Shown here piece after piece: positions 10,905 to 29,527 of a stretch of DNA of 64,000 bases. The stretch covers positions 88,624-152,623 of the forward strand of contig JARFNK010000014.1 of NCBI GenBank assembly GCA_029167225.1, read 5' to 3'. The translations under genes and the position numbers were made by a program. The stretch comes from Sphingobium arseniciresistens (GTDB taxonomy: Bacteria > Pseudomonadota > Alphaproteobacteria > Sphingomonadales > Sphingomonadaceae). The notes under the pieces were generated by a model. It had not been told where the DNA came from and did no database searches. It saw nothing but the letters and a program-made list of their open reading frames with translations. Within the stretch, counting starts at the first letter, position 1. Each line of letters begins with the position of its first letter.

Positions 10905-10923
10905 GACCCAAGGTCCAATTGTG
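10905..10923 (+). promoter_or_regulatory. Putative operator GACC-N3-GGTC + CAATTG (site 1, aldehyde dehydrogenase)
   Basis: GACCCAAGGTC (10905-10915) followed by CAATTGTG. The palindrome ends 73 nt before the ATG of the aldehyde dehydrogenase. The same arrangement is seen before six other transcription units of the PQQ locus. It probably binds the local LuxR-type response regulator; this is inferred from co-occurrence, not shown. Confidence 0.65.
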
Positions 10924-10988
10924 TCACTGCGGGATTTCGCCATCCTGTGTCCCTGAATTCCGATTCCAAAATCGACCCAGGAGACAAG

Positions 10989-12512
10989 ATGATGCTGCAA
11001 CAGGCGCTGCAGAAATTTGCCGGCCAGACCTTCATCCGCGACCGGTATGAAAATTACATCGGTGGCCAGTGGACGGCCCCCGCAAAGGGAGAATATTTCG
11101 ACAATATCTCGCCCGTGACCGGTCAAGTCGTGTGCACCGTGGCGCGGGGTACGGCGGAAGACATCGAACTGGCGCTGGACGCCGCCCATGCCGCGAAGGA
11201 CGCATGGGGCAAGATGTCATCGACAGAGCGATCCAACATCCTGCTCAGGATGGCCGACCGGATGGAGGCCAATCTTGACCTGATCGCGCTCGCCGAGACG
11301 ATCGACAATGGCAAGCCGATCCGCGAGACGACCCATGCCGACATCCCGCTCGCCATTGACCATTTCCGCTATTTCGCCGGCTGCGCCCGTGCGCAGGAAG
11401 GATCGATCAGCGAGATCGACCATGACACGATCGCCTATCATTTCCACGAACCGCTCGGCGTGGTCGGCCAGATCATCCCATGGAACTTCCCGATCCTGAT
11501 GGCAGTGTGGAAGCTGGCGCCCGCGCTGGCGGCCGGCAACTGCATCGTGCTCAAGCCCGCCGAGCAGACGCCGATGTCGATACTGGTTCTGGCGGAGATC
11601 ATCGGCGACCTGCTGCCGCCGGGCGTGCTCAACATCGTCAACGGCTTCGGCGTGGAGGCCGGCAAGCCGCTCGCCTCCAACAAGCGCATCAGCAAGATCG
11701 CGTTCACCGGCGAGACGACTACCGGCCGCCTCATCATGCAATATGCGTCCGAAAACCTCATCCCGGTTACGCTGGAACTCGGCGGCAAGTCGCCCAACAT
11801 CTTCTTCGCGGACGTGATGGACGCCGATGACGATTATTTCGACAAGTGCCTGGAAGGCTTCGCGATGTTCGCCCTCAACCAGGGTGAAGTCTGCACCTGT
11901 CCCAGCCGGGCGCTGATCCAGGAATCGATCTACGAGAAGTTCATCGAGCGTGCCATCGCCCGCGTGAAGGCGATCAAGCAGGGCAGTCCGCTCGATCCCT
12001 CGACGATGATCGGCGCGCAGGCATCCAACGACCAGTTGGAGAAGATCCTCTCCTATATCGCCATCGGCAGGGATGAAGGCGCCGAAGTGCTGACCGGCGG
12101 CGACCGTGCCGTGCATGAGGGCGAACTGGGTGAGGGCTATTATGTGACGCCGACCGTGCTCAAGGGGCACAACAGGATGCGGATCTTCCAGGAGGAAATC
12201 TTTGGCCCTGTGCTGGCGGTGACGACCTTCAAGGACGAGGCCGAGGCGCTCGCGATCGCCAACGACACGCTCTACGGCCTTGGCGCTGGCGTATGGACCC
12301 GGGATGGCGCCCGCGCCTATCGCATGGGGCGCGGCATTCAGGCTGGCCGCGTGTGGACCAACTGCTACCATGCCTATCCCGCACACGCCGCCTTCGGCGG
12401 TTACAAGCAGTCGGGCATTGGCCGTGAAAACCACAAGATGATGCTCGATCATTACCAGCAGACCAAGAACCTGCTGGTCAGCTACAGCCCCAAGGCGCTC
12501 GGCTTCTTCTGA
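10989..12512 (+). CDS. exaC: NAD-dependent aldehyde dehydrogenase (ExaC/AcoD type)
   Basis: Oxidises the aldehyde produced by the PQQ alcohol dehydrogenase to the carboxylate, in the cytoplasm with NAD(P). About 507 residues from the chosen start. Landmarks are the [20 protein letters not shown] cofactor region, [11 protein letters not shown] (general-base Glu), the catalytic Cys in [20 protein letters not shown], and the C-terminal [19 protein letters not shown] that is typical of the ExaC/AldB group. I start at ATG 10989 (a second ATG follows directly) because AGGAGA lies just upstream; an in-frame GTG at 10947 would add 14 residues. A putative regulon operator lies upstream. Confidence 0.93.
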
Positions 12513-12572
12513 GGGCCCGGATGATGTGACAGGTGCGCGCACGTTTCGCCCCTCTCCACGGCGCGCACTGAT

Positions 12573-12596
12573 GGCGGGCATCTGCGGATGCCCGCC
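12573..12596. promoter_or_regulatory. Strong hairpin between aldehyde dehydrogenase and DUF779 gene
   Basis: GGCGGGCATC (12573-12582), loop TGCG, GATGCCCGCC (12587-12596): a perfect 10-bp stem with a tetraloop. There is no U-tract, so it looks more like an mRNA-stabilising or attenuating hairpin than a simple terminator. It is followed at 12601-12615 by TCTCCTT-C-AAGGAGA, which pairs with the ribosome binding site of the next gene. Confidence 0.55.
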
Positions 12597-12621
12597 CCCT
12601 TCTCCTTCAAGGAGACTGGCG

Positions 12622-13014
12622 ATGAATGCCCTTCCTCCGCGCATCCTCTCCACGCCGGAGGCCGATGCGCTGATCGCCCGGCTGACGGCGCGGCATGGCC
12701 TGCTGATGTTCCATCAGTCCGGCGGCTGCTGCGATGGGTCGGCGCCGATGTGCTTCCCGCGCGGGGAGTTCAAGGTCGGCGCTCAGGATGTGCTGCTGGG
12801 AATGATCGCGGGCGATGTACCGGTCTGGATCGGCGCGGCGCAATTCACATATTGGCGCCATACGCAGGTGACGATCGACGTCGTGCCGGGCCGCGGCGCG
12901 GGCATGTCGCTGGAAAGCCCCGAAGGCGTGCGCTTCATCGTCCGCTCGCGGATCTTCTCCGATGACGAGGCGGCGGTGCTGGAGGCGGCGGGAGAGCCGC
13001 CCAGGGGCGGCTGA
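12622..13014 (+). CDS. DUF779 domain protein
   Basis: A 130-residue protein of the DUF779 family, a group of unknown function often found next to aldehyde dehydrogenases of this type. The conserved Cys-rich signature HQSGGCCDGSAPMC is at about residues 29-42, followed by the family blocks FKVGAQDVLLG, FTYWRHTQ and GRGAGMSLESPEGVRF. The ATG at 12622 is preceded by AAGGAGA at a good distance; longer in-frame starts upstream run through the hairpin and are unlikely. The Cys cluster suggests metal binding or a redox role, but this is not established. Confidence 0.88.
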   Translation: MNALPPRILSTPEADALIARLTARHGLLMFHQSGGCCDGSAPMCFPRGEFKVGAQDVLLGMIAGDVPVWIGAAQFTYWRHTQVTIDVVPGRGAGMSLESPEGVRFIVRSRIFSDDEAAVLEAAGEPPRGG

Positions 13015-13023
13015 CGCGGCACA

Positions 13024-14322
13024 ATGACGAACCTTCGTTTCACCGAACATCCGCTGCGTTCCCAGGTGGTGAGCGAGATGCAGTTGCGCCGCGAGCCGGC
13101 CTTTTCCGTGCCGGCGCTGATCGTGCAGATGGTCCGTTTGCTTGATCCGGCGCAGAGGGAGGCCGAAGCAGAAGTGCTGGTCGCGATGCCCGGCAATCAG
13201 CGGCAGTGCGAGCAGCCGCGCCACCGTGAGGGGCAGGTCAGCGATGACATAAGGCTCTTCTGGGAGCGGCATAGCGAGGCGAGCACCGCGACTGTGGTGC
13301 TGACCGGCGCGGCGGCGACCCACTGGCACATGTGGGATGATCCCGCTGCGCGTGTAGCGCTGGATTGGGCGGAAGCACTACCGGGCGCAGTGATCCGGGC
13401 GGTTCGGCTGACGATCTTGGCGGATGAAACGCAGGCTCAGGATGCCGTGGATGGCGCCGGCTTTCTGCCGGCCCAACTGGTCAGCTGTCATGTCTGTGGA
13501 GGCGCCCGGATATGGTCCGATTTCCGTATCCATGATGACGGCTATGGCCGCATGGTGGTCGCCGCCAACGGCCTGTTGCCCGGCGATCTGGCCCGCTGCG
13601 TCCAGAGGCTGCAGGAACTGGGCAACTATCGCAACCTCGCGCTGCTGGGACTGCCACCTGCGCGGGACGCCTGGGGCGAATTGGACCGGCTGGAGGTCGC
13701 GCTGGAGGATGCGGGACAGGCCCTTGCCATCGGCCAGGCACGAGACGACGCGCTGCTCGGCCTGTTGACGCGCTTGTCGGCCGAGCTGCTTTCGATCGAC
13801 AGCGGCTGCGCCTATCGGATGAGCGCCACCGTCGCCTATAGCCGGATCGTGGCGAGCCGTCTGGCGGAGCTGGACGTGGCGCCGATCGCCGGGCATGCCT
13901 CGCTTGCCGATTTTACCGAGCGGCGGCTGTGGCCCGCCGTCCGCACATGCGCCGCGCTGACCGATCGGCTGGCGCTGCTGAGCGGTCGCGCCGCGCAGTT
14001 CACGGCGCTGCTGCGCACGCGCATCGAAACCCATATCGAGAACCAGAACGGTCGCCTGCTGACGTCCATGGATCGCAGCGCCCGGATGCAGCTGCAGCTT
14101 CAGCAATTGGTCGAGGGGCTCTCAACAGTTGCCGTGAGCTATTATGCGCTGGGGCTACTCTCCTATCCGCTCAAGGCCGCCGAAAAGCACTGGCCCGGCC
14201 TGTCCGCCACCCTGCTCCTGGGGCTGGCGATGCCGCTAGTCGCCTTTACCGTCTTCCATCTGATCCATGGCGCCAAAAGGCAGCTGGTTTCGGGTGACAA
14301 CCCTGCCGATCCCGGTGCATGA
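13024..14322 (+). CDS. DUF3422 family membrane-anchored protein
   Basis: A 432-residue protein fitting the DUF3422 family. The N-terminus RFTEHPLRSQVVSEMQLR matches the family's HPLR opening, LFWERHSEASTATVV its WERHxE block, and QELGNYRNLALLGLPPAR its YRNLALLGLP signature. Two hydrophobic segments close to the C-terminus (about 370-385 and 400-420) suggest anchoring, with the bulk in the cytoplasm. It starts 9 nt after the DUF779 gene. The family has no known biochemical role. Its place between the aldehyde dehydrogenase and the sensor genes suggests a function in the alcohol-oxidation programme. Confidence 0.8.
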   Translation: MTNLRFTEHPLRSQVVSEMQLRREPAFSVPALIVQMVRLLDPAQREAEAEVLVAMPGNQRQCEQPRHREGQVSDDIRLFWERHSEASTATVVLTGAAATHWHMWDDPAARVALDWAEALPGAVIRAVRLTILADETQAQDAVDGAGFLPAQLVSCHVCGGARIWSDFRIHDDGYGRMVVAANGLLPGDLARCVQRLQELGNYRNLALLGLPPARDAWGELDRLEVALEDAGQALAIGQARDDALLGLLTRLSAELLSIDSGCAYRMSATVAYSRIVASRLAELDVAPIAGHASLADFTERRLWPAVRTCAALTDRLALLSGRAAQFTALLRTRIETHIENQNGRLLTSMDRSARMQLQLQQLVEGLSTVAVSYYALGLLSYPLKAAEKHWPGLSATLLLGLAMPLVAFTVFHLIHGAKRQLVSGDNPADPGA

Positions 14323-14357: not shown

Positions 14358-15515
14358 ATGAGGGCAATGACGGCGCAAGGCGTACAGGCGGGGATAGGCT
14401 TTGCATCCTCCCATGCCGACGACCCGTTCGAGGCGATGGCAGCGCTGGTCGAGACGCTAGGCGATGAGCCCCTTGCCGGTGCCGTGATCTTCTGTTCGCA
14501 TCGCCATGACCGGGATCGGCTGGCGCGGGCGATCAATCGTCATAGCGAAGGCACGACCGTCATCGGCTGCACCAGCTCCGGGGAACTGACCGACTCAGGC
14601 TATGACCGTGACAGCCTGACGATCATCGGCTTCCCAGCCGATAGCTTCTGCATGACGTCGCATTGCTTCGACGACATCGACCATTTCGATCCGGTGGCCG
14701 CGCGGGAGCAGGTCCGCGCATTAGCGGCGCGGGCCGACCGGGACAGCCGGGCGCTGGGCGAGGGCGTCAATCATGTGGCGCTTTTCCTGGTCGATGGCCT
14801 CTCGCACCGCGAGGAATTGCTGACCATGACGATCCAGGACGCACTGGGCGACATCCCGCTAATCGGCGGTTCGTCGGGAGATGACCTCGCCTTTCGCCAG
14901 ACCGCAATATTCGACGGCGGGCGCTTTCACGCGCGGGCTGCCGTGGTCGCCATATTGTCCACCACGCGGGCAATGCATGTGTTCAAGGCGCAGCATTATC
15001 GGCCGGGCGAACGCAAGATGGTGATTACCGGGGCAGTCCCGCATGAGCGCATCGTGACCGAGATCAATGCAGAGCCAGCCGCCGCCGAATATCTCCGTCT
15101 GGCGGGTCATGCAGGCGAGGAACTGGGCATGGAATTTTTTGGCGCGCACCCGCCGATGGTGCGGGCGGGCGGCGAATATCATGTGCGCTCCATTCAGAGC
15201 GCCAATCCCGATGGCAGCCTGACCTTCTATTGCGCGATCGACGAGGGCATCGTGCTGACCATCGGCGAGCCGGTGGACCGGATCGCGGGCATGGAGGTGC
15301 TGTTTCAGGATATCCATGCACATGTCGGCGATGTCGACCGGATCATCGCGTTCGATTGTGTGCTGAACCGCATCGATGCCGAGCAGCGGCAGATTTCGCG
15401 CGACGTTTCCGCGCTTTATGCCCGCCACCGGGTGATCGGCTTCAACACCTATGGCGAGCAATATCATGCGCTGCACGTCAATCAGACCTTCAGCGGCCTC
15501 GCAATCGGCAAATGA
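14358..15515 (+). CDS. FIST-domain sensor protein (NosP-like)
   Basis: A 385-residue protein with FIST_N (about 10-210) and FIST_C (about 215-370) domains; conserved pieces are VIGCTSSGEL, LPLIGGSSGDDL-like DIPLIGGSSGDDLAF, and GFNTYGEQY near the end. FIST proteins are intracellular signal-input proteins. In Pseudomonas the related NosP is a heme-based nitric-oxide sensor encoded beside a hybrid kinase of the same type as the gene downstream. Whether this protein binds heme is not evident. The stop codon overlaps the kinase start (ATGA), so the two are translationally coupled. GAGGGGCAATGGG precedes the ATG. Confidence 0.88.
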   Translation: MRAMTAQGVQAGIGFASSHADDPFEAMAALVETLGDEPLAGAVIFCSHRHDRDRLARAINRHSEGTTVIGCTSSGELTDSGYDRDSLTIIGFPADSFCMTSHCFDDIDHFDPVAAREQVRALAARADRDSRALGEGVNHVALFLVDGLSHREELLTMTIQDALGDIPLIGGSSGDDLAFRQTAIFDGGRFHARAAVVAILSTTRAMHVFKAQHYRPGERKMVITGAVPHERIVTEINAEPAAAEYLRLAGHAGEELGMEFFGAHPPMVRAGGEYHVRSIQSANPDGSLTFYCAIDEGIVLTIGEPVDRIAGMEVLFQDIHAHVGDVDRIIAFDCVLNRIDAEQRQISRDVSALYARHRVIGFNTYGEQYHALHVNQTFSGLAIGK

Positions 15516-17761
15516 GCGATATGCGCGCCTCCCTCGATCCTGACACGGAGGTCGAAGAGCTGCGCGAGGAGGTGCGCAAGCTGCGCAAGATCAACAGCGC
15601 GCTGATGGACCGGGTCGAGCGGTCGAGCGACATGTCCGCCAATGCCTTTTCGATGTTCGAGACGGCGATCTCGCTGGAGGCGAAGGTGCGGGACCGCACC
15701 ATGCAGCTGGAGGACGCGCTGGGACGGCTGGCCAAGGCCAATGCCGATCTGGGCGAGGCCCATGCCCATGCCGACGCCGCGCGCATGCGCCTGCGCGACG
15801 CGATCGAGTCGATCAACGAGGGCTTCGTGCTGTTCGATGCGGAGGACCGGCTGGTCCTCTATAACGAAGCCTATCTGGGTTTCTGGCCGCAGGTGGCCGG
15901 GCATCTGAACGAAGGGCTGACCTTCAACGAGATCGCCCGCATCGCGGCTCACAGCCAGAGCCCCGCAGGCGCACAGGTCGCGCCGGATCGCTGGGTTTCC
16001 GACCGGCTCGCCCGGCATGGCATTGCCGATGGTGGGCAGGTCCAGCGGCTTGCCGATGGCCGCTGGATACAGATCAACGAACTGCGTACCAGCGAAGGCG
16101 GGATCGTCGGCATCTATACCGACATCACGGAGGCGAAAGCGGAGGACGCCCGCGCCCGTGCGCTTGAGCTGGCGGAACGCAATGTCGTGCTGCAGGCGAC
16201 GCTGGACAATTTGTCGGAGGGCGTGTGCGTATTCGACGGCGCGGGACAGCTTGCAGCGTGGAACGACGCGCTGCGGCGGCTGCTCGCCCTGCCCGAGAAT
16301 TTCGCGAGCGCGTTCGCAAGCCATGCGGAGCTGCTGCGCTGGTGCCGCGAGAGATTAGGGCTGGACGATGGGGGCTGCCTGGACTGGCGTGGCGGCGACG
16401 TCGGCAATCCGCCAGTCGCGCGCCTGTGCGCGACGGGCGAGCGTCATTTTGAAATCCGCAGCAACAGCATGGCTGGCGGCGGGCAGGTCTTCGGTTTCAC
16501 TGACGTCACCGACATGCTGCACGCGCAGGCGGGCTTGCAGGAAACGGCCGAGACGCTGGAGCGCCGGGTATCGGAGCGAACCGGTGAACTGGTCGAACTC
16601 AACAGCAAGCTGGAGGGCGAGGTTGCCGAGCGCCGGGCGGTTGAGGCGGCGCTGATGGATGCGAAGATCGCGGCAGAAAAGGCGAACCTGTCGAAGACCA
16701 GCTTTCTGGCGGCGGCGAGCCATGACCTGCTGCAACCCCTTAACGCCGCGCGGCTGTTCGTCGCGGCGCTCGGTGACCGGCGGCTGGCGCTGCCGACCCG
16801 CGCGCTGGTCAACCAGACGTCCACGGCGCTGGACTCGGTAGAGGATCTTCTGGAGGCGCTGCTGGAAATCTCCCGGCTCGATGCGGGAGCGATCCAGCCG
16901 GAAACAGGGCATATCCGCATCGACCGGCTGCTGCAAACCCTTGCGGTCGAATTCGCGCCGATGGCAAGATCGGCGGGCCTCGGCTTTCGGATCGCGGCCG
17001 AACCGCTGTGGGTCGAGACAGACGTGCGACTGCTGCGCCGGATCCTCCAGAATTTCATCTCGAACGCGATCCGCTATACGCCTCGCGGGGCGGTCGATGT
17101 TGACTGCACGGCAGAGGGGGATGCCGTCAGGATCAGCGTCACCGATACCGGGCCCGGCATCGCGGCGGACAAACAGGCGCTGATTTTCGAGGAGTTCAGA
17201 CGGCTCGATACCCGCAGCCAGGGCAAGGGGCTCGGCCTGGCCATCGTCAAGCGCGCGAGCGAGATGCTGGGGCATCCCGTCACGCTTCGGTCCGCGCCGG
17301 GCGAGGGGGCGACCTTCACGATCAGCCTGCCGATGGGCCAGGAGCAGCGGGACGAGGAGCAGGATCGCAGCCGTCCGTTAAGGGATCGCTCGATGCGCAA
17401 CCTGTCGGTGCTGGTGGTGGACAATGAGCGGCAGATCCAGTCGGGCATGCGGACATTGCTGGCCGGCTGGGGCTGCACGGTCGCGACGGCCGACGGTTTC
17501 CAGAAGGCTGAGGCACTTTTCCCCGATGGTACGCGGCCGGACATCATCCTGGTCGACTATCATCTGAAGGATGGCGAGACCGGTGATACGGTGATCGCGC
17601 GGCTGCACGCATATTTCGGCGTGAAGGTGCCGGCGGTGATTATCTCGGCAGATCGCGGCGAGGCGTTGAAGACGCAGTTGGCCGCCACCGGCACGCCGCT
17701 GCTGAACAAGCCGGTCAAGCCTGCACAGCTGCGCGCATTGCTGCGGACGATGATGGACTGA
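15512..17761 (+). CDS. PAS-containing hybrid histidine kinase with receiver domain (NahK/ErcS'-like)
   Basis: A cytoplasmic hybrid kinase of 749 residues without membrane segments. The order is N-terminal coiled coil (about 15-95), two PAS domains (about 95-210 and 225-340), coiled coil, HisKA with phospho-acceptor His404 in AAASHDLLQPLNAARLF, HATPase_c with GPGIA and GKGLGLAI motifs (about 500-625), and a C-terminal receiver whose Asp lies in IILVDYHLKDG. The start at ATG 15512 overlaps the FIST gene by 4 nt. The architecture and the FIST partner match the kinase of pseudomonad ethanol-oxidation clusters, where it feeds the LuxR-type regulator also present here. Confidence 0.9.
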   Translation: MSDMRASLDPDTEVEELREEVRKLRKINSALMDRVERSSDMSANAFSMFETAISLEAKVRDRTMQLEDALGRLAKANADLGEAHAHADAARMRLRDAIESINEGFVLFDAEDRLVLYNEAYLGFWPQVAGHLNEGLTFNEIARIAAHSQSPAGAQVAPDRWVSDRLARHGIADGGQVQRLADGRWIQINELRTSEGGIVGIYTDITEAKAEDARARALELAERNVVLQATLDNLSEGVCVFDGAGQLAAWNDALRRLLALPENFASAFASHAELLRWCRERLGLDDGGCLDWRGGDVGNPPVARLCATGERHFEIRSNSMAGGGQVFGFTDVTDMLHAQAGLQETAETLERRVSERTGELVELNSKLEGEVAERRAVEAALMDAKIAAEKANLSKTSFLAAASHDLLQPLNAARLFVAALGDRRLALPTRALVNQTSTALDSVEDLLEALLEISRLDAGAIQPETGHIRIDRLLQTLAVEFAPMARSAGLGFRIAAEPLWVETDVRLLRRILQNFISNAIRYTPRGAVDVDCTAEGDAVRISVTDTGPGIAADKQALIFEEFRRLDTRSQGKGLGLAIVKRASEMLGHPVTLRSAPGEGATFTISLPMGQEQRDEEQDRSRPLRDRSMRNLSVLVVDNERQIQSGMRTLLAGWGCTVATADGFQKAEALFPDGTRPDIILVDYHLKDGETGDTVIARLHAYFGVKVPAVIISADRGEALKTQLAATGTPLLNKPVKPAQLRALLRTMMD

Positions 17762-18110: not shown

Positions 18111-18782
18111 TCAGTTCTCGCCGTCGAAATGCACGCGGTTCGCCAAAATCACGGCCTGCGTGCGGCTGAAGACGTGGAGTTTTTGCAGGATGGCGGAGAC
18201 ATGTGCCTTCACCGTCGTCATCGAGACGCTCAAATCATGCGCGATCTGCTTGTTGAGACGCCCGTGGACAAGGTGGGTCAGCACGATCCGCTGCTGCGGC
18301 GTCAGGCTGCCGATCCGGGCCAGGATGTCGGTTTCTTCCGGGCTTTCCTGCGGACCATCCTCGATCGCATCGGGCATGTAGATTTCGCCCGAGACAACGC
18401 GGTGCAGCGCCTCCACGATGGCCGAGCGCTTCATCGATTTGGGGATGAAACCGGCCGCGCCAGCGCTGAGTGCCTCGCGCACGATGCTGCGGTCGAACGC
18501 GCCCGACACCATGACTACGGGCAGGATCGGGTAACGGCTGCGGAGCAGTCGCAACCCGTCCAGCCGCTTCACGTCCGGGATATTGAGGTCGAGCAGGATC
18601 AGGTCGAAATTGGATTGCTTGTCCAGCGTCGCGAGCGCGTCTTCCAGCCCCGCCGCCTCGAAAATCTCGCAGCCATCGAAGGTCACGGCGATCACGCTGC
18701 GCAGGCCATCGCGGACCAGTGGATGATCGTCAATGATGAGCACCCGTTCCATCATGACTTCGCCGCTGTCTTCAGCCTGCAT
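18111..18782 (-). CDS. LuxR-family response regulator (ErbR/AgmR-like)
   Basis: A two-component regulator of about 223 residues. The receiver domain begins RVLIIDDHPLVRDGL and has the phospho-acceptor Asp in LILLDLNIPDV and the conserved Lys in GFIPKSMKR. The C-terminal LuxR/NarL helix-turn-helix reads LTPQQRIVLTHLVHGRLNKQ and TTVKAHVSAILQKL. The start is uncertain: I chose the ATG at 18782, which has AGGGGG upstream; ATGs at 18755 and 18752 would begin directly at the receiver. It is the obvious output partner of the hybrid kinase and the likely reader of the GACC-N3-GGTC sites in this locus. It ends 329 nt from the convergent kinase gene. Confidence 0.88.
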   Translation of the reverse strand: MQAEDSGEVMMERVLIIDDHPLVRDGLRSVIAVTFDGCEIFEAAGLEDALATLDKQSNFDLILLDLNIPDVKRLDGLRLLRSRYPILPVVMVSGAFDRSIVREALSAGAAGFIPKSMKRSAIVEALHRVVSGEIYMPDAIEDGPQESPEETDILARIGSLTPQQRIVLTHLVHGRLNKQIAHDLSVSMTTVKAHVSAILQKLHVFSRTQAVILANRVHFDGEN

Positions 18783-20705: not shown

Positions 20706-20716
20706 GACCTTCGGTC
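20706..20716 (-). promoter_or_regulatory. Putative operator (site 2, PQQ alcohol dehydrogenase)
   Basis: Read on the minus strand: GACCGAAGGTC followed directly by CAATTGTTCCGCAGG. It lies 71 nt upstream of the dehydrogenase ATG, nearly the same distance as at the aldehyde dehydrogenase (73) and the porin (72). It is the cleanest copy of the motif. Confidence 0.7.
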
Positions 20717-22027: not shown

Positions 22028-22115
22028 CCCAATCCCTCATTTGTGCGTCGACCCATGTTGGCCGCTCGTCACCCCTGTTGCCGTGAGTGTAGGGAAGCTG
22101 ACGCAGCCGCCCATT

Positions 22116-22130
22116 GGCCATTGGTACAAT
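22116..22130 (+). promoter_or_regulatory. Putative operator (site 3, beta-propeller gene)
   Basis: GGCC-ATT-GGTA followed by CAAT: two mismatches from GACC-N3-GGTC-CAAT. It lies 65 nt before the ATG of the beta-propeller gene, in the divergent promoter region shared with the cytochrome gene. It is the weakest but one of the seven sites. Confidence 0.45.
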
Positions 22131-22191: not shown

Positions 22192-23154
22192 ATGATGAAG
22201 GTCGCTTTTGCGGGATTGGCGCTGATCGCTGCGATGCCGGCCGTGCAGGCTGAAACCCTCTATGTTTCCAACGAGCGCGGCAATAGCATCAGCGTGATCG
22301 ATGCGGCGACGATGCAGCCACTGGCGACATGGCCGGTCGGCGGGCGGCCTCGCGGCATCACGCTGACGAAGGATGGCAAATATATCCTGCTTTGTGCCAG
22401 CAGCGACCATGCCGTGCAGATGATCGACCGGGCGACCGGCAAGGTCGTGGCCGACCTGCCTTCGGGGCAGGATCCCGAGCAGTTCTTCCTCTCCCGCGAT
22501 GGCCGCACGCTGTTCGTCGCGAATGAGGATAATGCCGCGCTGACCGCGATCGACCTCGAAAGCCGCAAGGTGGCGTTCCAGGTCGATGTCGGCAAGGAAC
22601 CCGAAGGGGTGGCGCAAAGCCCAGACGGGAAATGGGTGGTCGTGACATCGGAGGATGACGGCGTCGTCAACTGGATCGACCTTGCGACAAAGACGATGGT
22701 CGACGCGACGGAGACCGACCAGCGCCCCCGCCATGTGGAATTCACCGCCGACGGCAAGCAGCTGTGGATCGCGGCCGAGACCGGCGGCACGGTACAGATT
22801 GCGGACCCGGGCACCCGCAAGATCACCGATACCATCCATTTCGCCATTCCAGGCGTGCAGGATTATCAGATCCTGCCGTGCGGCATTCGCTTCACGCCAG
22901 ACGGGAAGACGGCGGTCGTCGCGCTGGGCCGCGCGAACCATCTCGCTCTGGTCGACGTCGCGACCCGCGCGGTGCGCGCCTATGTTCCGGTCGGCAAGCG
23001 GGTCTGGCATCTGGCGATCAGCACAGACGGCGCGCATGCCTATGCCGCCAATGGACTTTCGGACAATGTCTCCGTGGTGGACCTTGCCAGTGCGAAGGTC
23101 GTGGGCACGGTGCCGGTTGGCGCCGGGCCGTGGGGTATCGCCATTGCGCCCTGA
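22192..23154 (+). CDS. PQQ-catabolism-associated YVTN beta-propeller protein
   Basis: A 320-residue periplasmic seven-bladed propeller. A short signal peptide (MMKVAFAGLALIAAMPAVQA) is followed by repeated blades of the YVTN type: TLYVSNERGNSISVIDAA, GKYILLCASSDHAVQMIDRA, GRTLFVANEDNAALTAID and HAYAANGLSDNVSVVDLAS. This family accompanies PQQ alcohol dehydrogenase clusters; its molecular role is unknown, possibly in electron relay or protein contacts. It is divergent from the cytochrome-XoxJ operon, with a candidate operator between them. Confidence 0.87.
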   Translation: MMKVAFAGLALIAAMPAVQAETLYVSNERGNSISVIDAATMQPLATWPVGGRPRGITLTKDGKYILLCASSDHAVQMIDRATGKVVADLPSGQDPEQFFLSRDGRTLFVANEDNAALTAIDLESRKVAFQVDVGKEPEGVAQSPDGKWVVVTSEDDGVVNWIDLATKTMVDATETDQRPRHVEFTADGKQLWIAAETGGTVQIADPGTRKITDTIHFAIPGVQDYQILPCGIRFTPDGKTAVVALGRANHLALVDVATRAVRAYVPVGKRVWHLAISTDGAHAYAANGLSDNVSVVDLASAKVVGTVPVGAGPWGIAIAP

Positions 23155-23189: not shown

Positions 23190-23206
23190 GAACCAAAGTC
23201 CAATTT
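23190..23206 (+). promoter_or_regulatory. Putative operator (site 4, porin gene)
   Basis: GAACCAAAGTCCAATTT: 15 of 19 positions agree with the site before the aldehyde dehydrogenase when aligned through the CAATT tail. The core ends 72 nt before the porin ATG. Confidence 0.5.
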
Positions 23207-23272: not shown

Positions 23273-24673
23273 ATGGGAAGAGGGACGTTCCTCGGGAGCG
23301 CCGCAATGGCGCTCGCGTTCGCGGCAGGCGCAACGCCGGCGATGGCGAGCACGACACAAGAGCTGCTGAAAAGGCTTCACGAAAAGGGCATCCTCACCGA
23401 CGAGGAATATCAGCAACTGGTGAAGCAGGAGGACGCCCAGGTCGCAACCGCGCCAAGCGCGCCGCCCGCGCAGGCAGCGGCCGCTTCGCTGGACGACAAG
23501 CGCCTCGTGCGGATGACGGATAGCGGTGTCGGCATGGAAGTGGGCGGCGTCGCGGTCAAGATTTCCGGCTCGGTGAACGGCTTCTACACGCATGAGAACG
23601 GTCAGGCACCTGGTGCGACAACAGCGGTCGTCGGGGGCGTGGTGCCGGTGGGAGGCAACAGTTCGTCCATCCGCAACGGCCTGCTCCCCGGCTATCTGAA
23701 ATTCGACGTCACCACCAATCAGGGGGGATGGGATGTCGGCGCGCATTTCGGCATGTATCCCGGCATCAACAGCGCGGATTATTCCGGCGGTGGCGGCGCG
23801 AATGCCGGCGGCCGCCCGGTCGCGCTGCAGACAGCGGGCATCGATTTCCGTCAGACCTACATGACCATCGGCCGCAAGGGGCTGGGCGAGTTCAAGTTGG
23901 GCCGCGACATCGGCCTGTTCGGGTCGGAAGGCATATTGAACGACATCACCCTGCTCTCCGTCGGATCGAGCGGCGGCAATGTCGCGCCGTCCAACACCTC
24001 GCTGGGGCGCATCGGCATCGGCTACATCTACACCGATTTCCAGCCACAGATCACCTACAACTCACCCAGCCTTTCCGGCTTCCAGGTGTCGGTCGGCGTC
24101 TTCCAGCCGCTCCAGTCCCTCACTGGACCTGGCGAAAGCAGCAAGTCGCCCGGTTTCCAGGGCAAGCTCGTCTATGATGGCAAGTTCGGGGATTTCTCGG
24201 CCCGTGCCTGGCTGTCGGGCATCACCCAAAAGCATAACCGCATCGATGGCGTCTCCTATACCGGCAGCGGTTTCGATACGGGCGCCAAGCTCGGCTATGG
24301 CCCGATCGTGCTGACGGGCTATTATTATAACGGCGCGGGCCTTGGTACGACGGCGCTCAACCTGTTCGATACGGACGCGAACGGGGCGAAACGCGACAGC
24401 GACGGCTTCTACCTTCAGGGGCTGGCGACGTTCGGCAAATTCTCCGTCGGCGGCAGCTATGGGGAGAGCAACCTGCATTATGCCAACATGGCAGACGCCC
24501 TCGCCAATCCGGCACTGGTGGAAAAGAACAGCAGCTGGGTCGGGCAGGCGCGCTATGGCTTGACCGGCTGGGTCACGCTGATCGGCGAATATATCCGCAC
24601 CAAGTCGCAGGCGCACAATGGCAATGAGGCAAAGGCGGACACCATCGCGGCAGGTGCAATCCTGTTCTTCTGA
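23273..24673 (+). CDS. Outer-membrane porin
   Basis: A 466-residue outer-membrane beta-barrel. The signal peptide ends near PAMAS. A short coiled-coil stretch (TTQELLKRLHEKGILTDEEY) follows, as in trimeric porins with an N-terminal periplasmic stalk. The barrel contains strands such as VKISGSVNGFY and GEFKLGRDIGLFG and ends in a hydrophobic-aromatic terminus with Phe (AAGAILFF), as expected for assembly by the Bam machinery. The upstream operator copy suggests it is induced with the alcohol-oxidation genes, perhaps for alcohol or metal-complex uptake. The specific solute is unknown. Confidence 0.85.
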   Translation: MGRGTFLGSAAMALAFAAGATPAMASTTQELLKRLHEKGILTDEEYQQLVKQEDAQVATAPSAPPAQAAAASLDDKRLVRMTDSGVGMEVGGVAVKISGSVNGFYTHENGQAPGATTAVVGGVVPVGGNSSSIRNGLLPGYLKFDVTTNQGGWDVGAHFGMYPGINSADYSGGGGANAGGRPVALQTAGIDFRQTYMTIGRKGLGEFKLGRDIGLFGSEGILNDITLLSVGSSGGNVAPSNTSLGRIGIGYIYTDFQPQITYNSPSLSGFQVSVGVFQPLQSLTGPGESSKSPGFQGKLVYDGKFGDFSARAWLSGITQKHNRIDGVSYTGSGFDTGAKLGYGPIVLTGYYYNGAGLGTTALNLFDTDANGAKRDSDGFYLQGLATFGKFSVGGSYGESNLHYANMADALANPALVEKNSSWVGQARYGLTGWVTLIGEYIRTKSQAHNGNEAKADTIAAGAILFF

Positions 24674-24688
24674 GCTTAATGAGGCGCC

Positions 24689-24699
24689 GACTAAAGGTA
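24689..24699 (+). promoter_or_regulatory. Putative operator (site 5, TonB receptor)
   Basis: GACTAAAGGTA: 9 of 11 positions of GACCAAAGGTC, without a clear CAATTG tail. It ends 58 nt before the receptor ATG. Taken alone it would be weak; it is listed because of the series. Confidence 0.4.
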
Positions 24700-24757
24700 T
24701 GACAGAACGCAAATTCGTGCCACCCTAGCGTCGATCGATAACAAAAATGGAGGCGAT

Positions 24758-27070
24758 ATGAGGGGATTGGGCTGGCTTTCAGCAGGAGTGGCGGGGATGG
24801 CGCTGGTTCCGGCGCTCGCGCGTGGGGAGGAGCCTGACGCGACTCCATCTCAGGCTATCGTCGTCACTGCCCCCGGCGGCGCGGTCGATAGCGACGATGC
24901 ACTTTCCATCGGCGCACCGGATATCAGCCGCGCGTCGGCGCCCGATCTGCTCTCCGCTTTGACGCGGAACGTGGCCGGCGTCACTCTGCAGGATGCCCAG
25001 AACAATCCCTGGCAACCCAATCTGGTCTATCGGGGCTTCGTCGCGTCCCCGTTGCAGGGGCAATCACAGGGCCTGGCGGTCTATATGGACGGCGCACGCT
25101 TCAACCAGCCCTTTGGCGATACTGTCCAGTTCGACCTGATCCCCGAAGCGGCAATCCGCAAGCTCAGCATCCTCGATGCCAGCCCAGTCTATGGCCTCAA
25201 CGCGCTGGGCGGTGCCATTCTCCTGGAGACCAAGACCGGCCGAAGCGATCCGGGGTTGGAGGCAAGCGCGACCGGCGGGCGCTTCGGCTATGCAGAGGGC
25301 AGCATCGCGGGCGGGCTCGCGCGTGGCAATGTCAGCGTTTTCGGCGCGTTCCAATATAGTCGGGAAGATGGCTGGCGCGATCATAGCCCATCCCGGCTTT
25401 ATAATGGATATCTCGATCTGGGTTTCGATACCGAGGCCGGCGGCCTTCATATGAAGCTGGTCGGTGCCGATACCGACCTGACCGGCAATGGCGTCTCGCC
25501 CGTGGAATTGCTTGCCGCAGATCGACGCGCAGTCTTCACCTGGCCCGATAACAGTCGCAGCCGCTATGGCCGGGTCAGCCTGCATCCCTGGGTCGCTCTG
25601 TCTCCAGAAACGCGTATCGAAGGCACGCTTTACGCCCAACGGCTCACCCTGCGCACAGTCAATGGTGACGCCGCCGATATCGAGGGCTGCGAGGATGACG
25701 ATGCCGATGGGCTGTTATGCCTGGAGACCGTGAGCGGTGATGGCGATGAAGAGCAGGCCATCCTGACGGAGGCCGGCGGCAATCCGATCGTCGATGCGCT
25801 GGACGGAGAGGGCTATGGCGTCCTTAATCGCGGGCGCACGCGCACTGATGCGATCGGCGCATTGGCGCAGATCATCGATGAACGACCCCTGCTTGCCGGC
25901 AATAATCACTTTGCGCTCGGCCTGAGTTACGACGGCAGCCGCACCCGTTTCGATACGTCGACGGAACTGGGCGAACTCACCGAGGACCGCAGCGTGGAAG
26001 CGCTTGGCAGTCGCATCGTGCAGGCCGATGGTGCGATTGCGCCAGTGGGATTGGTGGCCCACACCGAATATTGGGGTGCGTTCGTGCAAGATAGGGTGCC
26101 GCTGGCGCCGGGGATTTCCGCCGAACTCGGCCTGCGCTGGAACCATGCGCGGATAGAATTGACGGATCAGATCGGCACGGCGCTTAACGGCAGGCACAGT
26201 TTCGAGCGCCTCAATCCGGGCATCGAACTGGACTATATCGTGTCACAGGGGCTGTCGCTGCGCGCTGGCTATGCCGAGAGCAACCGCGCGCCCACGCCCG
26301 CCGAACTCTCCTGCGCAGACGAGACGGCGCCGTGCAGCCTCACCAACTTCTTCATCGCCGATCCGCCGTTGAAGCAGGTTGTCGCCAAAAGCTGGGAGGC
26401 GGGAGCGTCGGGCGCTTTCCATCTGGGCGGATGGCAGGCGACATGGCTGCTCTCCGCCTATCGCACCACCAACCGCAACGATATCCAGTATATCGCCTCG
26501 CAGATCCGGGGGCGCGCCTATTTCCAGAATATCGGGAGCACGCGGCGGCAGGGTGTCGAGGGTTCGCTCAAGGCTAGCCATGGCGGCCTGACCGCCGGCC
26601 TTGGCTATGCCTTTACCGATGCGACCTATCGTGATGACCTGATCCTGAGCAGCCCGGCCAACCCTGAAGCGGATGACGACGGCACCGTCGATGTCGCGCC
26701 GGGCGATCGCCTGCCGGGCATCCCCCGCCATAGCGTCACGCTGACATTGGATTATGCGGCAAAGGGCTGGTCGATCGGCGGCGACCTGATTGCCCGCTCC
26801 GGCCAATATCTGGTCGGTGACGAGGGCAATCAGAACGCCAGGGTGCCCGGCTATCTGATTGCGAACCTGCGCGCCGGGATCGATATCGTACAGGGCGTCA
26901 CCCTGTTTGGCGAACTGCGCAATGCCTTTGGCCGCAAATATGCGACTTTCGGTACATTCTCGCAGGTGGATGAGATTGAACTGGAGGAGGCACCCGGCGC
27001 GAATAATCCGCGGGCCTATGGCCCCGGAGCGCCCAGAAGATGGTATGCAGGCGTCAAGACGAGATTCTAG
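24758..27070 (+). CDS. TonB-dependent receptor of the PQQ/lanthanide locus
   Basis: A 770-residue outer-membrane receptor. Signal peptide about 1-22, TonB-box-like AIVVTAP at 33-39, plug domain (about 50-160, with VYMDGARFNQPFGD and NALGGAILLETKT), then a 22-strand barrel ending RRWYAGVKTRF. An unusually acidic extracellular-type loop at residues 303-333 lies between Cys311 and Cys321 and beyond (CEDDDADGLLC, then SGDGDEEQ). Receptors in such positions are candidates for lanthanide-chelate uptake because the local dehydrogenase has a lanthanide site. That assignment is inference; siderophore or cofactor uptake is also possible. Confidence 0.85.
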   Translation: MRGLGWLSAGVAGMALVPALARGEEPDATPSQAIVVTAPGGAVDSDDALSIGAPDISRASAPDLLSALTRNVAGVTLQDAQNNPWQPNLVYRGFVASPLQGQSQGLAVYMDGARFNQPFGDTVQFDLIPEAAIRKLSILDASPVYGLNALGGAILLETKTGRSDPGLEASATGGRFGYAEGSIAGGLARGNVSVFGAFQYSREDGWRDHSPSRLYNGYLDLGFDTEAGGLHMKLVGADTDLTGNGVSPVELLAADRRAVFTWPDNSRSRYGRVSLHPWVALSPETRIEGTLYAQRLTLRTVNGDAADIEGCEDDDADGLLCLETVSGDGDEEQAILTEAGGNPIVDALDGEGYGVLNRGRTRTDAIGALAQIIDERPLLAGNNHFALGLSYDGSRTRFDTSTELGELTEDRSVEALGSRIVQADGAIAPVGLVAHTEYWGAFVQDRVPLAPGISAELGLRWNHARIELTDQIGTALNGRHSFERLNPGIELDYIVSQGLSLRAGYAESNRAPTPAELSCADETAPCSLTNFFIADPPLKQVVAKSWEAGASGAFHLGGWQATWLLSAYRTTNRNDIQYIASQIRGRAYFQNIGSTRRQGVEGSLKASHGGLTAGLGYAFTDATYRDDLILSSPANPEADDDGTVDVAPGDRLPGIPRHSVTLTLDYAAKGWSIGGDLIARSGQYLVGDEGNQNARVPGYLIANLRAGIDIVQGVTLFGELRNAFGRKYATFGTFSQVDEIELEEAPGANNPRAYGPGAPRRWYAGVKTRF

Positions 27071-27099: not shown

Positions 27100-28053
27100 T
27101 TATCTCTCTTGCACATCGATCCGGGGCAGCAGCCTGGCCTCCAGCCCCGGATAGAGATGCGACACGCTGCGCTGCAGTTCATAGCGGGCCACCGCCAGCC
27201 CCGAAAAACGCGCCGGGATCGGCAAGGCGCCCGCCTCGACCATATCCAGCCCGGACTGGACGGCGAGGGTGAGGGTGTCCTCCAGCCAGTCGATCCAGTC
27301 CCGCGTCTGGACGATCGCCGCCGTGCCTGATGGATCGAACGGGCCATGGCCGGGAATGGCCCCCTTGTGCGGCAGCTGCGCCAGCAGCTCCAGGCTCTCG
27401 CGCCAGCGGGCGAGATCCGCAGTCGGCGTACTTGGCGCGCGATCATGAAACAGCAGGTCGCCGCCGATGAGCGTGCCTGTCTTCTCGTCGAGTAGCGCAA
27501 GGTCACCGGCACTGTGGCCGGCGAGGGCCATCAGGCGTAAGGGCCGGCCGCCGAAATCCTCGGAAATCTCACTGATCGGCCGGCCCGGCAGCACCAAGTC
27601 AGTGCCGCGCATCCAGTCACCCAAGATCCGGTACATGGCATCGGAAAAGCCCCGGCCGTCGCGGGCCATGTCGCTGATCGTCTGCGGCAGCGCGGTGACG
27701 ATCGCGCGATCGAACGCGGCGATCCCCATGCCATGGTCAGGATGCAGATGCGTCACATAGACCCGCACAACCGGCTTGCCCGTCAGCCCTTCCGCCACGC
27801 TTTTCAGTGCGCGGCCATAGCGGATCGACGGCCCGCTATCGACCAGCACGGCGCCTGCCGGCGTGTCGATGATCGCGATATTGGCGATCGCCCCGCCATT
27901 GCTGAACAGGATCGGCGCATCGGCGCCGTGGATCATCCATATACCGTCGGCAACCTGTAGAGGCGAAATATGATAATCCTCCGTCGCCGCCCACAGTGCC
28001 ACCGGCATGGCTGCCATCAGCGCACCGAACATGCTCCTGCGCGAAAAACTCAT
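27100..28053 (-). CDS. Quinoprotein relay system zinc metallohydrolase (MBL fold)
   Basis: A 317-residue metallo-beta-lactamase-fold protein with the zinc motif HLHPDHGMG (HxHxDH), a later GHSAGDLAL His and a GHGPF His. The leader MSFSRRSMFGALMAAMPVAL contains a twin arginine followed by a hydrophobic stretch, so export by Tat is likely. This group of MBL proteins is found only with PQQ dehydrogenases and SoxYZ-like carriers, where it is proposed to process a carrier-bound intermediate. Its start overlaps the SoxYZ-like gene stop by 4 nt. Confidence 0.85.
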   Translation of the reverse strand: MSFSRRSMFGALMAAMPVALWAATEDYHISPLQVADGIWMIHGADAPILFSNGGAIANIAIIDTPAGAVLVDSGPSIRYGRALKSVAEGLTGKPVVRVYVTHLHPDHGMGIAAFDRAIVTALPQTISDMARDGRGFSDAMYRILGDWMRGTDLVLPGRPISEISEDFGGRPLRLMALAGHSAGDLALLDEKTGTLIGGDLLFHDRAPSTPTADLARWRESLELLAQLPHKGAIPGHGPFDPSGTAAIVQTRDWIDWLEDTLTLAVQSGLDMVEAGALPIPARFSGLAVARYELQRSVSHLYPGLEARLLPRIDVQER

Positions 28054-28868
28054 CGCGGGCTGAGGGCCGGGACAGGCGATTGTCGCGCTACCGGCACCCT
28101 GGCCAGATAGCCGCGCCCGCTGGTGTCACGCGCCGAAATGGTCAGCATCTCACCCGCCGCAGCATGGGGCATCAGCGTGATGGCGGGATTTTCGGAAACC
28201 GATGCCCAGACCTCCATTGCGCCCAGCGTGGCACCCTGTGCGGATTTCACCGCCAGTTCCTCGATATGATAAGCCGGTATGTTGGCGACGAGCCCGGTGT
28301 CCATGGGATGGCGGAAGCTGATGCGCAGGCGACTGACGGAGTTACCGGCCGCCGGCCATGCTTCGCCGCGTATTTCGCCCAGATGATCGGCCCAGTCGCC
28401 CGCCACCCGGCTCAGTGGCGGCGCCGAGCAACCGCCGCCCACCGCGTCGACCCAGCCGCCCGCGACCAGCCATTGCCCGTCGATCAGCTGCACCGCCCCG
28501 CGTACCGGCGTGCGCTGGTCCAGCTTGATCCGGGTCGCGACATAGGGCTCTGCGGCGTCGGGCCGATAGTCGATGGCGATCGGGATGGGGTTGAGATCGG
28601 CGAAGATCACCATGCGCCTCACCTGACCTATCCCGCGCGCGTCGAGCGCCACGGGAAAGCTGCGCTGGTTCTCCGCCACCTCGGGAGAGCTGATCCTGAG
28701 GCGGGTATCGAAGCGGACAGGATCATCGCCGAAGATGCTCCGGGCATGGGCGGTCCACATCGGTGACTGCAACGGATCTGCAGGGTAGGGGACGCGCGCG
28801 GCGAGCACCGTTGGGATCACCAGCGGCACCGTGCCCAGCGGGACCAGCAGAGATATATGCGGCCTCAT
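28050..28868 (-). CDS. Quinoprotein-associated SoxYZ-like carrier protein
   Basis: About 272 residues, with an N-terminal signal (MRPHISLLVPLGTVPLVIPT) and a SoxY-like domain ending in DAVGGGCSAPPLS, whose Cys corresponds to the carrier Cys of SoxY. A SoxZ-like beta-sandwich (about 165-265) follows. Fused SoxYZ carriers of this type occur in PQQ dehydrogenase clusters next to the zinc metallohydrolase. I start at ATG 28868 with GGGAGAAGGAC upstream; an in-frame ATG at 28892 lacks a good ribosome binding site. A candidate operator lies 51 nt upstream. Confidence 0.82.
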   Translation of the reverse strand: MRPHISLLVPLGTVPLVIPTVLAARVPYPADPLQSPMWTAHARSIFGDDPVRFDTRLRISSPEVAENQRSFPVALDARGIGQVRRMVIFADLNPIPIAIDYRPDAAEPYVATRIKLDQRTPVRGAVQLIDGQWLVAGGWVDAVGGGCSAPPLSRVAGDWADHLGEIRGEAWPAAGNSVSRLRISFRHPMDTGLVANIPAYHIEELAVKSAQGATLGAMEVWASVSENPAITLMPHAAAGEMLTISARDTSGRGYLARVPVARQSPVPALSPR

Positions 28869-28913
28869 GTCCTTCTCCCAAAGTCCATGCATATGCAGCC
28901 GGCAATATCTTTA

Positions 28914-28930
28914 CCATTGCACCTTGGGTC
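28914..28930 (-). promoter_or_regulatory. Putative operator (site 6, between SoxYZ-like and CXXCW genes)
   Basis: Read on the minus strand: GACCCAAGGTG followed by CAATGG. It sits in the short divergent region, 51 nt from the SoxYZ-like start and 27 nt from the CXXCW-protein start, and could serve both directions. Confidence 0.55.
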
Positions 28931-28957
28931 ATGAGGATGTGAGGCAAGGGAGCGCGC

Positions 28958-29509
28958 ATGATGTGGAAACCTGTCCTGACGATCCTGCTGCTGCTGGCAC
29001 CGGCCATTGCCAGCGCCCAGCTGCCCGATGGAGGATTGTTCGGCGCCGACGGCTATCGCATCGCCCATTATCGCGCGCCGGTGCCAGAGGCGCCCGATGG
29101 CGTCGGTCGCATTGCCCCGGCAGCCGTGGCGCAGTTGCGCGCCGATGTGGACGTCATCCTGATCGACGTTTTGCCGGCGGAAGGCGCGCATCGCGACGAG
29201 ACCGGCGGCTGGCACCTCGCAAAGGACCGCCCGAGCGTTCCGGGCGCACACTGGTTCCCCGAAGCGGGGCGCGGCGAACCGGCGCCGGATATCGCATCAT
29301 GGTTCGAACGCGGCGTCGCGCGACTGACGGGCGGCGCGAAGGGGCGTATGATCGTGACCTTCTGCCTTGCCGACTGTTGGATGAGCTGGAACGCCGCCCG
29401 GCGGTTGCGGACCATGGGATATCATAATGTCTGGTGGCTGGCGGAAGGAACCGATGGCTGGCGCGATCTCGGCCTGCCGCTCACGCCGGTTCTGCCTGAA
29501 GGGCGATAG
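28958..29509 (+). CDS. PQQ-catabolism-associated CXXCW-motif protein (rhodanese-like)
   Basis: A 183-residue exported protein: signal peptide about 1-20, then a rhodanese-like domain. The signature is FCLADCWMSWNAARRL at about residues 132-147, where two Cys precede Trp; here the spacing is C-x-x-x-C-W. The C-terminal NVWWLAEGTDGWRD is typical of the rhodanese fold. This family is restricted to PQQ-dependent alcohol catabolism loci; thiol or sulfur chemistry with the SoxYZ-like carrier is a plausible but unproven role. It is divergent from the SoxYZ-like gene and upstream of pseudoazurin. Confidence 0.85.
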   Translation: MMWKPVLTILLLLAPAIASAQLPDGGLFGADGYRIAHYRAPVPEAPDGVGRIAPAAVAQLRADVDVILIDVLPAEGAHRDETGGWHLAKDRPSVPGAHWFPEAGRGEPAPDIASWFERGVARLTGGAKGRMIVTFCLADCWMSWNAARRLRTMGYHNVWWLAEGTDGWRDLGLPLTPVLPEGR

Positions 29510-29527
29510 GACCAAAGGTCAATTGTG
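29510..29527 (+). promoter_or_regulatory. Putative operator (site 7, pseudoazurin)
   Basis: GACCAAAGGTC (29510-29520) followed by AATTGTG, one base closer than in the other sites. It ends 76 nt before the pseudoazurin ATG. The palindrome starts 1 nt after the end of the CXXCW gene. Confidence 0.65.

Follow-up and report, generated by a model that had tools for sequence, protein, structure and literature searches.

The closest described operator to the one reported here is the ACTU box of the CrbS/CrbR (MxtR/ErdR) system of Pseudomonas fluorescens and other Gammaproteobacteria. According to the accessible text of PMC5715377, this box is an imperfect inverted repeat (GAC-N4-GTC) through which CrbR/ErdR acts; it is placed at -52 to -36, just ahead of the RpoD promoter, is necessary for the activation of acs, and has predicted sites such as TACTACCAAAGTCTAAT and CTTGACCAAGGTCGATT. 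A motif logo for ErdR is given as a figure in PMC9927353. The closest described gene cluster is the ped cluster of Pseudomonas, in which, as far as the accessible text of PMC12997753 describes it, alcohol dehydrogenases dependent on pyrroloquinoline quinone (PQQ) stand beside rhodanese-like, propeller and SoxH-like quinoprotein-associated genes, in the company of a porin, NosP/GfdT, the kinase PedS1/ErcS' and the LuxR-type response regulator AgmR/PedR1/ErbR. No operator for AgmR-type regulators was found in the literature searched, which covered freely accessible text, that of PMC12997753 included. This study deals with a 64,000-nucleotide stretch of the 6.6-Mb genome of Sphingobium arseniciresistens (contig JARFNK010000014.1, positions 88,624 to 152,623; hereafter the window, whose own numbering is used throughout). 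Profile and domain scans of the window proteins placed a PQQ-dependent alcohol oxidation cluster at 10.9 to 30 kb, and a 17-nucleotide box, GACCNAAGGTCCAATTG, recurs before its genes. The boxes are probably activator operators of the LuxR-type response regulator encoded within the cluster at 18111-18752.

Like ACTU, the box is an imperfect inverted repeat whose GTC-N-AAT arm points towards the promoter and would lie just upstream of or at the -35 region; both systems also combine a LuxR-family response regulator with a carbon-oxidation regulon. An Azospirillum pedF site, TACCATCGTCCAAT, differs at a single base from the acs box core of P. fluorescens, TACCATCGTCGAAT. In contrast to ACTU, the exaC, dehydrogenase, soxYZ, tonB and pseudoazurin copies have an N5 spacer (the porin and Azospirillum pedF sites fit N4), and CAATTG or CAATGG stands on the promoter side. 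The targets are PQQ-alcohol genes rather than acs/actP, and the sensor is a NosP-NahK-like kinase rather than the SLC5-STAC protein CrbS. We interpret the box as a variant, in Alphaproteobacteria, of the CrbR/ErdR ACTU box; it shares architecture and regulator family with ACTU and differs from it in the spacing of most copies, in targets and in class. The cluster keeps the same gene company as the Pseudomonas ped cluster; unlike the latter as described, it holds one dehydrogenase (PedH type) and a TonB-dependent receptor, and pqqB and pqqC were not found in the genome.

Putative operator copies and predicted promoter anatomy

An earlier note on this DNA, made from the sequence alone, had described the motif at seven places, and the described sequence is present at all seven. 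The putative operator before exaC, GACCCAAGGTCCAATTG (10905..10921, plus strand), contains an exact palindrome and is the top matrix match of the window. The copy before the PQQ alcohol dehydrogenase gene, GACCGAAGGTCCAATTG (20700..20716, minus strand), is followed 16 nt downstream by a -10-like TAATAG. A near-palindromic putative operator, ATTGGCCATTGGTACAAT (22113..22130), is common to the divergent promoters of pedF (minus) and the propeller gene (plus). The porin copy, GAACCAAAGTCCAATTT (23190..23206, plus), belongs to a short-spacer class; a degraded putative operator, GACTAAAGGTATGACAG (24689..24705, plus), precedes the TonB-dependent receptor gene, for which other genomes carry GACCCAAGGTATAATGG and similar copies. 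The last two are GACCCAAGGTGCAATGG (28914..28930, minus), before the soxYZ-like gene, and GACCAAAGGTCAATTG (29510..29525, plus), before pseudoazurin. Exact GACC-N3-GGTC occurs at 10905, 20706 and 29510, the three full copies counted previously, and a fourth exact copy lies outside the cluster at 61719. Four copies had been put 71-76 nt before the ATG; measured from CAATT(G/T), the distance is 73 nt for exaC, 71 for the dehydrogenase and 72 for the porin, and at 77 nt pseudoazurin falls close to that range. The copy at 28914 had been assigned to a joint SoxYZ-like/CXXCW unit. It is placed for soxYZ and its end lies 28 nt upstream of the cxxcw start; therefore it probably serves SoxYZ alone, and that half of the assignment is kept.

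In the dehydrogenase promoters, a TAATAG, CATAGT or CATAAT-like element that is conserved across genomes stands 16-17 nt after CAATTG; at nearly this distance the remaining promoters have CTAATC, CCTACACT or CCTAGC. CAATTG thus appears to occupy the place of a -35 hexamer, on -35 and -10 positions assigned from sequence. With CAATTG at this distance, the promoter-proximal arm would cover the -35 region with the GACC arm upstream of it, as expected of an activator that contacts polymerase. In the pedF-propeller intergenic site both arms end in CAAT, each facing its own -10-like element, and the site is best taken as one operator for two predicted promoters. Two spacer classes are seen: GAC-N5-GTC (exaC, dehydrogenase, soxYZ, pseudoazurin, tonB) and AAC/TAC-N4-GTC (porin and Azospirillum pedF).

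Specificity of the motif

The symmetric palindrome described in the earlier note is not the discriminating part. With at most one mismatch, bare GACC-N3-GGTC occurs 29 times in the window against 32.05 expected, which is no enrichment, and in the whole genome its exact form is rarer (82 sites) than the reversed control (133); with density at chance in both, it was dropped as a motif. The directional 17-mer is specific: four genome sites match with at most two mismatches, three of them inside the cluster, and 29 with at most three, against 16 for the reversed control. Twenty-five of the 29 sites lie outside the cluster, all inside reading frames of at least 120 codons; this location is a weak test, since the DNA is GC-rich and the true porin site also lies inside such a frame.

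A first matrix drew only on 24 sites before the dehydrogenase and exaC genes in further Sphingobium genomes, with the genome under study excluded. Its top ranks in the 64-kb window were 10905, 20700 (minus), 28914 (minus) and 23190, of which 28914 and 23190 are promoters of genes outside the training set. The score of 23190 (17.3) is borderline, as two of eight shuffled windows reached 17.7 and 18.1, and 29510 (12.0) was not picked out. A second matrix, trained on 70 sites before six genes of other genomes, gave 22.4-28.3 to five of the seven window copies, against a best score of 18.8 in eight shuffled windows; the sites at 24689 and 22113 were not among its high scores.

Conservation across relatives

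Orthologues were mapped in stretches around the regulator gene from 19 same-genus relatives, the genome under study being included in the counts, and a promoter was counted when a site scoring at least 18 of 25 lay within 200 nt upstream. In this genus set the box precedes the dehydrogenase gene in 19/19 cases, soxYZ in 10/10, the porin gene in 16/17, tonB and pseudoazurin in 12/13 each, and exaC in 7/10; the cxxcw count of 10/10 refers to the same site as soxYZ. Of the 13 genomes scored for tonB, 12 have a good copy and the genome under study a degraded one. Control genes of the same stretches almost always lack the box (regulator 0/20, kinase 0/17, nosP 0/10, DUF3422 0/3, sbp 0/18, mbl 0/9, duf779 2/10), and shuffled upstream regions had it in 0-9% of cases. 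At five promoters the motif columns have a majority base in 0.91-0.97 of sequences, against 0.48-0.60 in the upstream flank; the flanks vary and the box is fixed. The low pedF and propeller counts given below are explained by the different, near-palindromic form of their site, which is almost invariant among the genomes compared.

A wider set consisted of named loci of regulator relatives, which still include some Sphingobium and four genomes also in the genus set. Here the box precedes the dehydrogenase gene in 24/31 loci, the porin gene in 19/22, pedF in 20/34, the propeller gene in 13/30, exaC in 14/19, pseudoazurin in 9/12 and tonB in 4/6, and the controls gave no hit: regulator 0/38, kinase 0/23, nosP 0/23, DUF3422 0/2, duf779 0/17, sbp 0/25 and mbl 0/9. 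Conservation in orthologous promoters, which the earlier note had set as a check, was found in the genus at the dehydrogenase, soxYZ, porin, tonB, pseudoazurin and exaC genes, against 0-2 hits for each of the seven control genes.

Fourteen of 17 exaC orthologues carry the box, whereas none of the 13 exaC paralogues examined (of 28 listed) does. In the three orthologues that lack it (G013, G015 and G030), pseudoazurin stands directly upstream of exaC; the box was scored before pseudoazurin in G015 and G030, and the G013 pseudoazurin gene is cut by the stretch end and was unscored. G036 and G020 have the same gene order and yet retain the box before exaC, which counts against a strict rule. The 17-mer's specificity in the genome, its conservation relative to control genes and the box-free exaC paralogues together support the idea of one regulator. 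A relocated exaC was considered as independent evidence and rejected, as the cases prove to be broken contigs or insertions within the cluster and not clear relocations: exaC of G028 lies on another contig of a draft whose regulator contig ends just past the regulator gene, and in G012 and G008 it lies about 9 kb and about 19 kb from that gene. The box is kept before exaC in all three.

More distant promoters were also scored. Among 30 pedF loci from 398 genomes searched across the phylum, ACTU-like boxes occur in several Alphaproteobacteria, and many others showed no clear box in this uncontrolled scan. Sixteen pqq operon promoters of PQQ makers yielded one clear box, in Azospirillum (L292, 0.88 of maximum). 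Novosphingobium rosa, Sphingomonas sp. Leaf20 and five further Azospirillum loci reached 0.71-0.79, some on the other strand, and the best scores of the remaining loci were 0.67-0.71, a level that the pqqC loci of the genus (L281 and L282) did not exceed. With a background that is partly controlled, the ACTU-like boxes near pqq operons of PQQ makers (L292, L288, L293, L295 and L286, from Azospirillum and Novosphingobium rosa, included) are suggestive only.

Association of the box with the response regulator

Co-occurrence was scored in 61 genomes, with the regulator at 75% identity or more and the box at one mismatch or fewer. Each was present in 20 genomes, with an overlap of 19: the box occurs in 19/20 regulator-positive genomes versus 1/41 regulator-negative ones (Fisher 1.3e-13, uncorrected for relatedness). 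G001, the regulator-negative genome with a site, holds just one copy, at one mismatch. The regulator-positive genome without a box, G014, shows boxes near porin and tonB remnants at lower stringency; in the stretches examined there (L092 and L073) no dehydrogenase, sbp or pedF gene was found, and only the end of the propeller gene is left. Named close relatives of the regulator are mostly from Sphingobium, with Rhizorhabdus and Novosphingobium in addition. A regulator gene of 77% identity lies on the plasmids NZ_CP013072 and NZ_CP005190 of Sphingobium indicum B90A and Sphingobium sp. MI1205, and contig C3 of G011 carries the cluster. The locus is also present in S. fuliginis DSM 18781. An insertion between the kinase and regulator genes of G016, checked for pqq genes, was found from its translations to hold argB- and folD-like genes.

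A second line of evidence comes from Mesorhizobium and related Hyphomicrobiales, where the regulator-kinase-NosP module occurs without PQQ genes in the 20-kb stretches examined and the regulator relatives are about 50% identical. A related pattern, GACCNAAAGTACAATNG, occurs 26 times with at most two mismatches, in 26 of 42 loci; its reversed form is absent from the 756,483 bases. Of the 27 loci with a CoxS-like gene, 22 carry the site in the orientation of that gene and no more than 350 nt before it; L158, L179, L183, L195 and L201 lack it there. In the two loci scanned, the operon encodes a molybdenum hydroxylase whose best models are glyceraldehyde dehydrogenase and aerobic carbon monoxide dehydrogenase, both below cut-offs. 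At L172:13334-18447 and 21 similar loci, the regulator module adjoins the CoxS/L/M-like operon, which a closely similar box precedes. Since such a box stands at a molybdenum-hydroxylase operon beside relatives of the regulator, the box appears to follow the regulator and not PQQ genes. Together with the co-occurrence, this pairing points to the LuxR-type regulator, which the earlier note had named as the natural candidate. In the window, its gene lies beside those of a NosP-like sensor, a NahK/ErcS kinase and the PQQ alcohol dehydrogenase, the setting of AgmR/PedR1-type regulators.

Proposed mechanism and alternative explanations

Upon an inducing signal, the regulator would most likely be phosphorylated by the NahK/ErcS-type hybrid kinase encoded next door, which the NosP-like FIST protein may tune. 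A regulator dimer would then bind just upstream of the -35 region, overlapping it, and would activate rather than repress the sigma-70-like promoters of the periplasmic alcohol-oxidation system. The predicted regulon comprises the dehydrogenase, cytochrome c550, propeller, porin, TonB receptor, SoxYZ/metallohydrolase, pseudoazurin and ExaC. No terminator-like site was found between the dehydrogenase gene and the regulator gene 133 nt downstream, and read-through from the former into the latter may provide feedback.

Several findings weigh against this reading. In the window, the tonB copy is degraded, and two of the seven copies (24689 and 22116, the latter within the site at 22113) are weak by matrix. 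With the directional consensus used first, the genus set gave only 3/19 for the propeller gene and 1/18 for pedF. In the wider set few soxYZ genes (2/13) and no cxxcw gene (0/8) have the box, and 7/31 dehydrogenase promoters fail, those of Azospirillum among them. Unequal half-sites and varying spacing are not readily tolerated by a rigid dimer, and the regulator does not reach the cut-off of the ErdR model. Since one cluster passes on regulator and box together, their co-occurrence at genus level is not independent. The Mesorhizobium pattern was drawn from the five matches seen first and is missing from 16 of the 42 loci, and only nine of 42 have a site of at least 0.83 by the Sphingobium consensus itself, five of them the common GACCGAAAGTACAAT.

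It is unlikely that the box is bound by some other regulator, for instance by a LuxR-type response regulator paralogue encoded outside the cluster, and that the regulator of the cluster is a bystander. Contig C110 of this genome does encode a response regulator with 38% identity, and regulators of 36-44% identity are common in relatives. Genomes with paralogues alone at E <= 1e-30 (for example G017, G024, G026, G031 and G032) nevertheless have no box at one mismatch or fewer, and it is relatives of the cluster regulator that are paired with closely similar boxes beside another operon.

Still less probable is that the box, rather than being an operator, is an extended -35 element recognised by an alternative sigma factor. 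The place of CAATTG at -35 and its near-fixed distance to a -10-like element would suit such an element, and the accessible text of PMC12826043 describes an effect of the ECF (extracytoplasmic function) factor RpoE6 on the expression of exaA and pqqA in Azospirillum brasilense. Such a factor would hardly account for the near-symmetric copy between the divergent pedF and propeller genes, for the conservation of GACC upstream of the expected sigma contact, or for the pairing with one response regulator family across different targets; the likeness to the box described in PMC5715377 as necessary for CrbR activation also argues for an operator. That the copies are chance occurrences or functionless remnants of promoter duplication can practically be set aside, because only the bare palindrome lies at chance density, while the 17-mer is conserved amid variable flanks and ranks high by matrix. 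Activation by the LuxR-type regulator of the cluster remains the preferred reading.

Genes of the cluster

The cluster begins with the gene for acetaldehyde dehydrogenase ExaC (10989..12512, plus; NF050026 above cut-off), followed on the same strand by those for a DUF779 protein (12526..13014; PF05610), a DUF3422 protein (13024..14322; PF11902), a NosP-like sensor with FIST N and C domains (14358..15515; NF041558, 410.1 bits against a cut-off of 450) and the NahK/ErcS-family hybrid histidine kinase (15512..17761; NF041832 above cut-off). On the minus strand lies the gene of the response regulator, the presumed operator binder, with REC and GerE domains (18111..18752, ATG at 18752, which corrects an earlier frame of 18111-18782). 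Its best NCBIfam model is ErdR (NF041830), at 179.6 bits and below the curated cut-off of 390. It is followed by the PQQ alcohol dehydrogenase gene (18886..20634, minus; TIGR03075 above cut-off), whose product has PedH (6zcw) as its best solved relative. Alignments to 6zcw and to ExaA (1flg) show WDFDG in place of the WDFSG of ExaA, so that a second Asp after the catalytic Asp is present; this we take to be the mark of the lanthanide type.

Further genes on the minus strand encode a substrate-binding-protein-like product (sbp, 20723..21592; PF00497) and cytochrome c550 PedF (21599..22027; TIGR04494 above cut-off). Divergent from these is the PQQ-associated beta-propeller gene (22192..23154, plus; TIGR03866 above cut-off). 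The porin-like outer membrane protein (23273..24673, plus) is named after the earlier note and its place in the cluster, as no porin model matched it in the profile and domain scans. The TonB-dependent receptor gene (24758..27070, plus) comes next, then those for quinoprotein relay zinc metallohydrolase 1 (27100..28053, minus; TIGR04558 above cut-off), the quinoprotein-associated SoxYZ-like carrier (28050..28868, minus; TIGR04557 above cut-off), the CXXCW motif protein (28958..29509, plus; TIGR03865 above cut-off) and pseudoazurin (pazu, 29597..30046, plus; TIGR02375 above cut-off). A chaperone-usher type cluster lies directly before the exaC operator (6824-10884), with usher model matches at 8052-10379 and, flanking the usher gene, proteins that look spore-coat-U-like. 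A gene at 2921-4366 looks on reading the sequence like that of a Dyp-type peroxidase.

PQQ supply and the TonB-dependent receptor

The earlier note had expected pqq biosynthesis genes under the box. The cluster is not a PQQ biosynthesis locus, as neither pqqB nor pqqC was found in the genome, and pqqC occurs in only 1/20 regulator-positive and 1/41 regulator-negative relatives. These two pqqC loci (L281 in G032 and L282 in G015) are identical in the stretches compared; the G015 copy lies on a 7.5-kb contig and is possibly a mobile element or contamination. A PQQ enzyme is thus present where PQQ synthesis is mostly absent, a setting that suggests scavenging as context and not as proof. The TonB-dependent receptor is present in 18/20 regulator-positive versus 0/41 regulator-negative genomes at E <= 1e-150; the two misses are G014, with a partial tonB match only, and G025 (60% complete). 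A whole-genome search covered 37 genomes drawn from 80 named loci, a Mesorhizobium and a Methylobacterium among them; most were chosen because their loci hold PQQ genes. A homologue at E <= 1e-80 was found in 21/24 genomes without pqqC versus 5/13 with it (Fisher 0.006, uncorrected for relatedness), at identities of 36-79%, so that not all need be orthologues. The pqqC carriers Novosphingobium rosa and a Sphingomonadales metagenome-assembled genome (MAG) have no homologue at this threshold. The three misses without pqqC are a 2.4-Mb MAG, a Mesorhizobium MAG and Sphingomonas sp. Ant H11, where the gene is split over two frames; this match (L147:17143-19426) may reflect decay or an assembly error.

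The best solved relatives of the receptor are structures of PqqU (YncD), the TonB-dependent PQQ importer of Escherichia coli (E 2.5e-17 and 3.5e-17). Foldseek placed PqqU first and YncD third, with other TonB receptors close behind; this ranking is only a hint because the structure model is poor (mean confidence, pLDDT, 59.3, with residues 1-126 below 50). The receptor differs from PqqU in that identity is only about 19-20% and the NCBIfam score is 102.7 bits against a cut-off of 1200. In a phmmer alignment that is uncertain at about 20% identity, PqqU Y99 faces Q, so the aromatic residue is not conserved, and R304 and R365 fall outside the aligned stretches. As given in the accessible text of PMC12124388, PqqU was reported in one alphaproteobacterium only, on the basis of the Y99/R304/R365 signature, which would probably miss this receptor. 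By sequence the receptor is a candidate importer of PQQ or of lanthanide, a lanthanide chelate being an equally possible substrate since the dehydrogenase is of the lanthanide type.

We tentatively propose, with slightly more doubt than confidence, that the NosP-like sensor, kinase, response regulator and box form a portable cassette that in Alphaproteobacteria is wired to at least two unrelated oxidation systems, lanthanide-type PQQ alcohol oxidation and a molybdenum hydroxylase, and that in PQQ non-makers also drives TonB-dependent import of PQQ (or a PQQ/lanthanide complex).

In sum, the box offers a candidate binding-site code for LuxR-type regulators of PQQ-alcohol clusters. It links these regulators to the CrbR/ErdR box of acetate metabolism and suggests that a regulator-box pair has moved between targets. 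If the cassette proposal is true, the receptor would import PQQ without carrying the PqqU signature, and would do so in Alphaproteobacteria, for which the accessible text of PMC12124388 reports almost no such importers; as a candidate it runs counter to the published view of Alphaproteobacteria as mainly makers and not scavengers of PQQ. The receptor may thus be a concrete candidate for cofactor acquisition in sphingomonads without PQQ synthesis.

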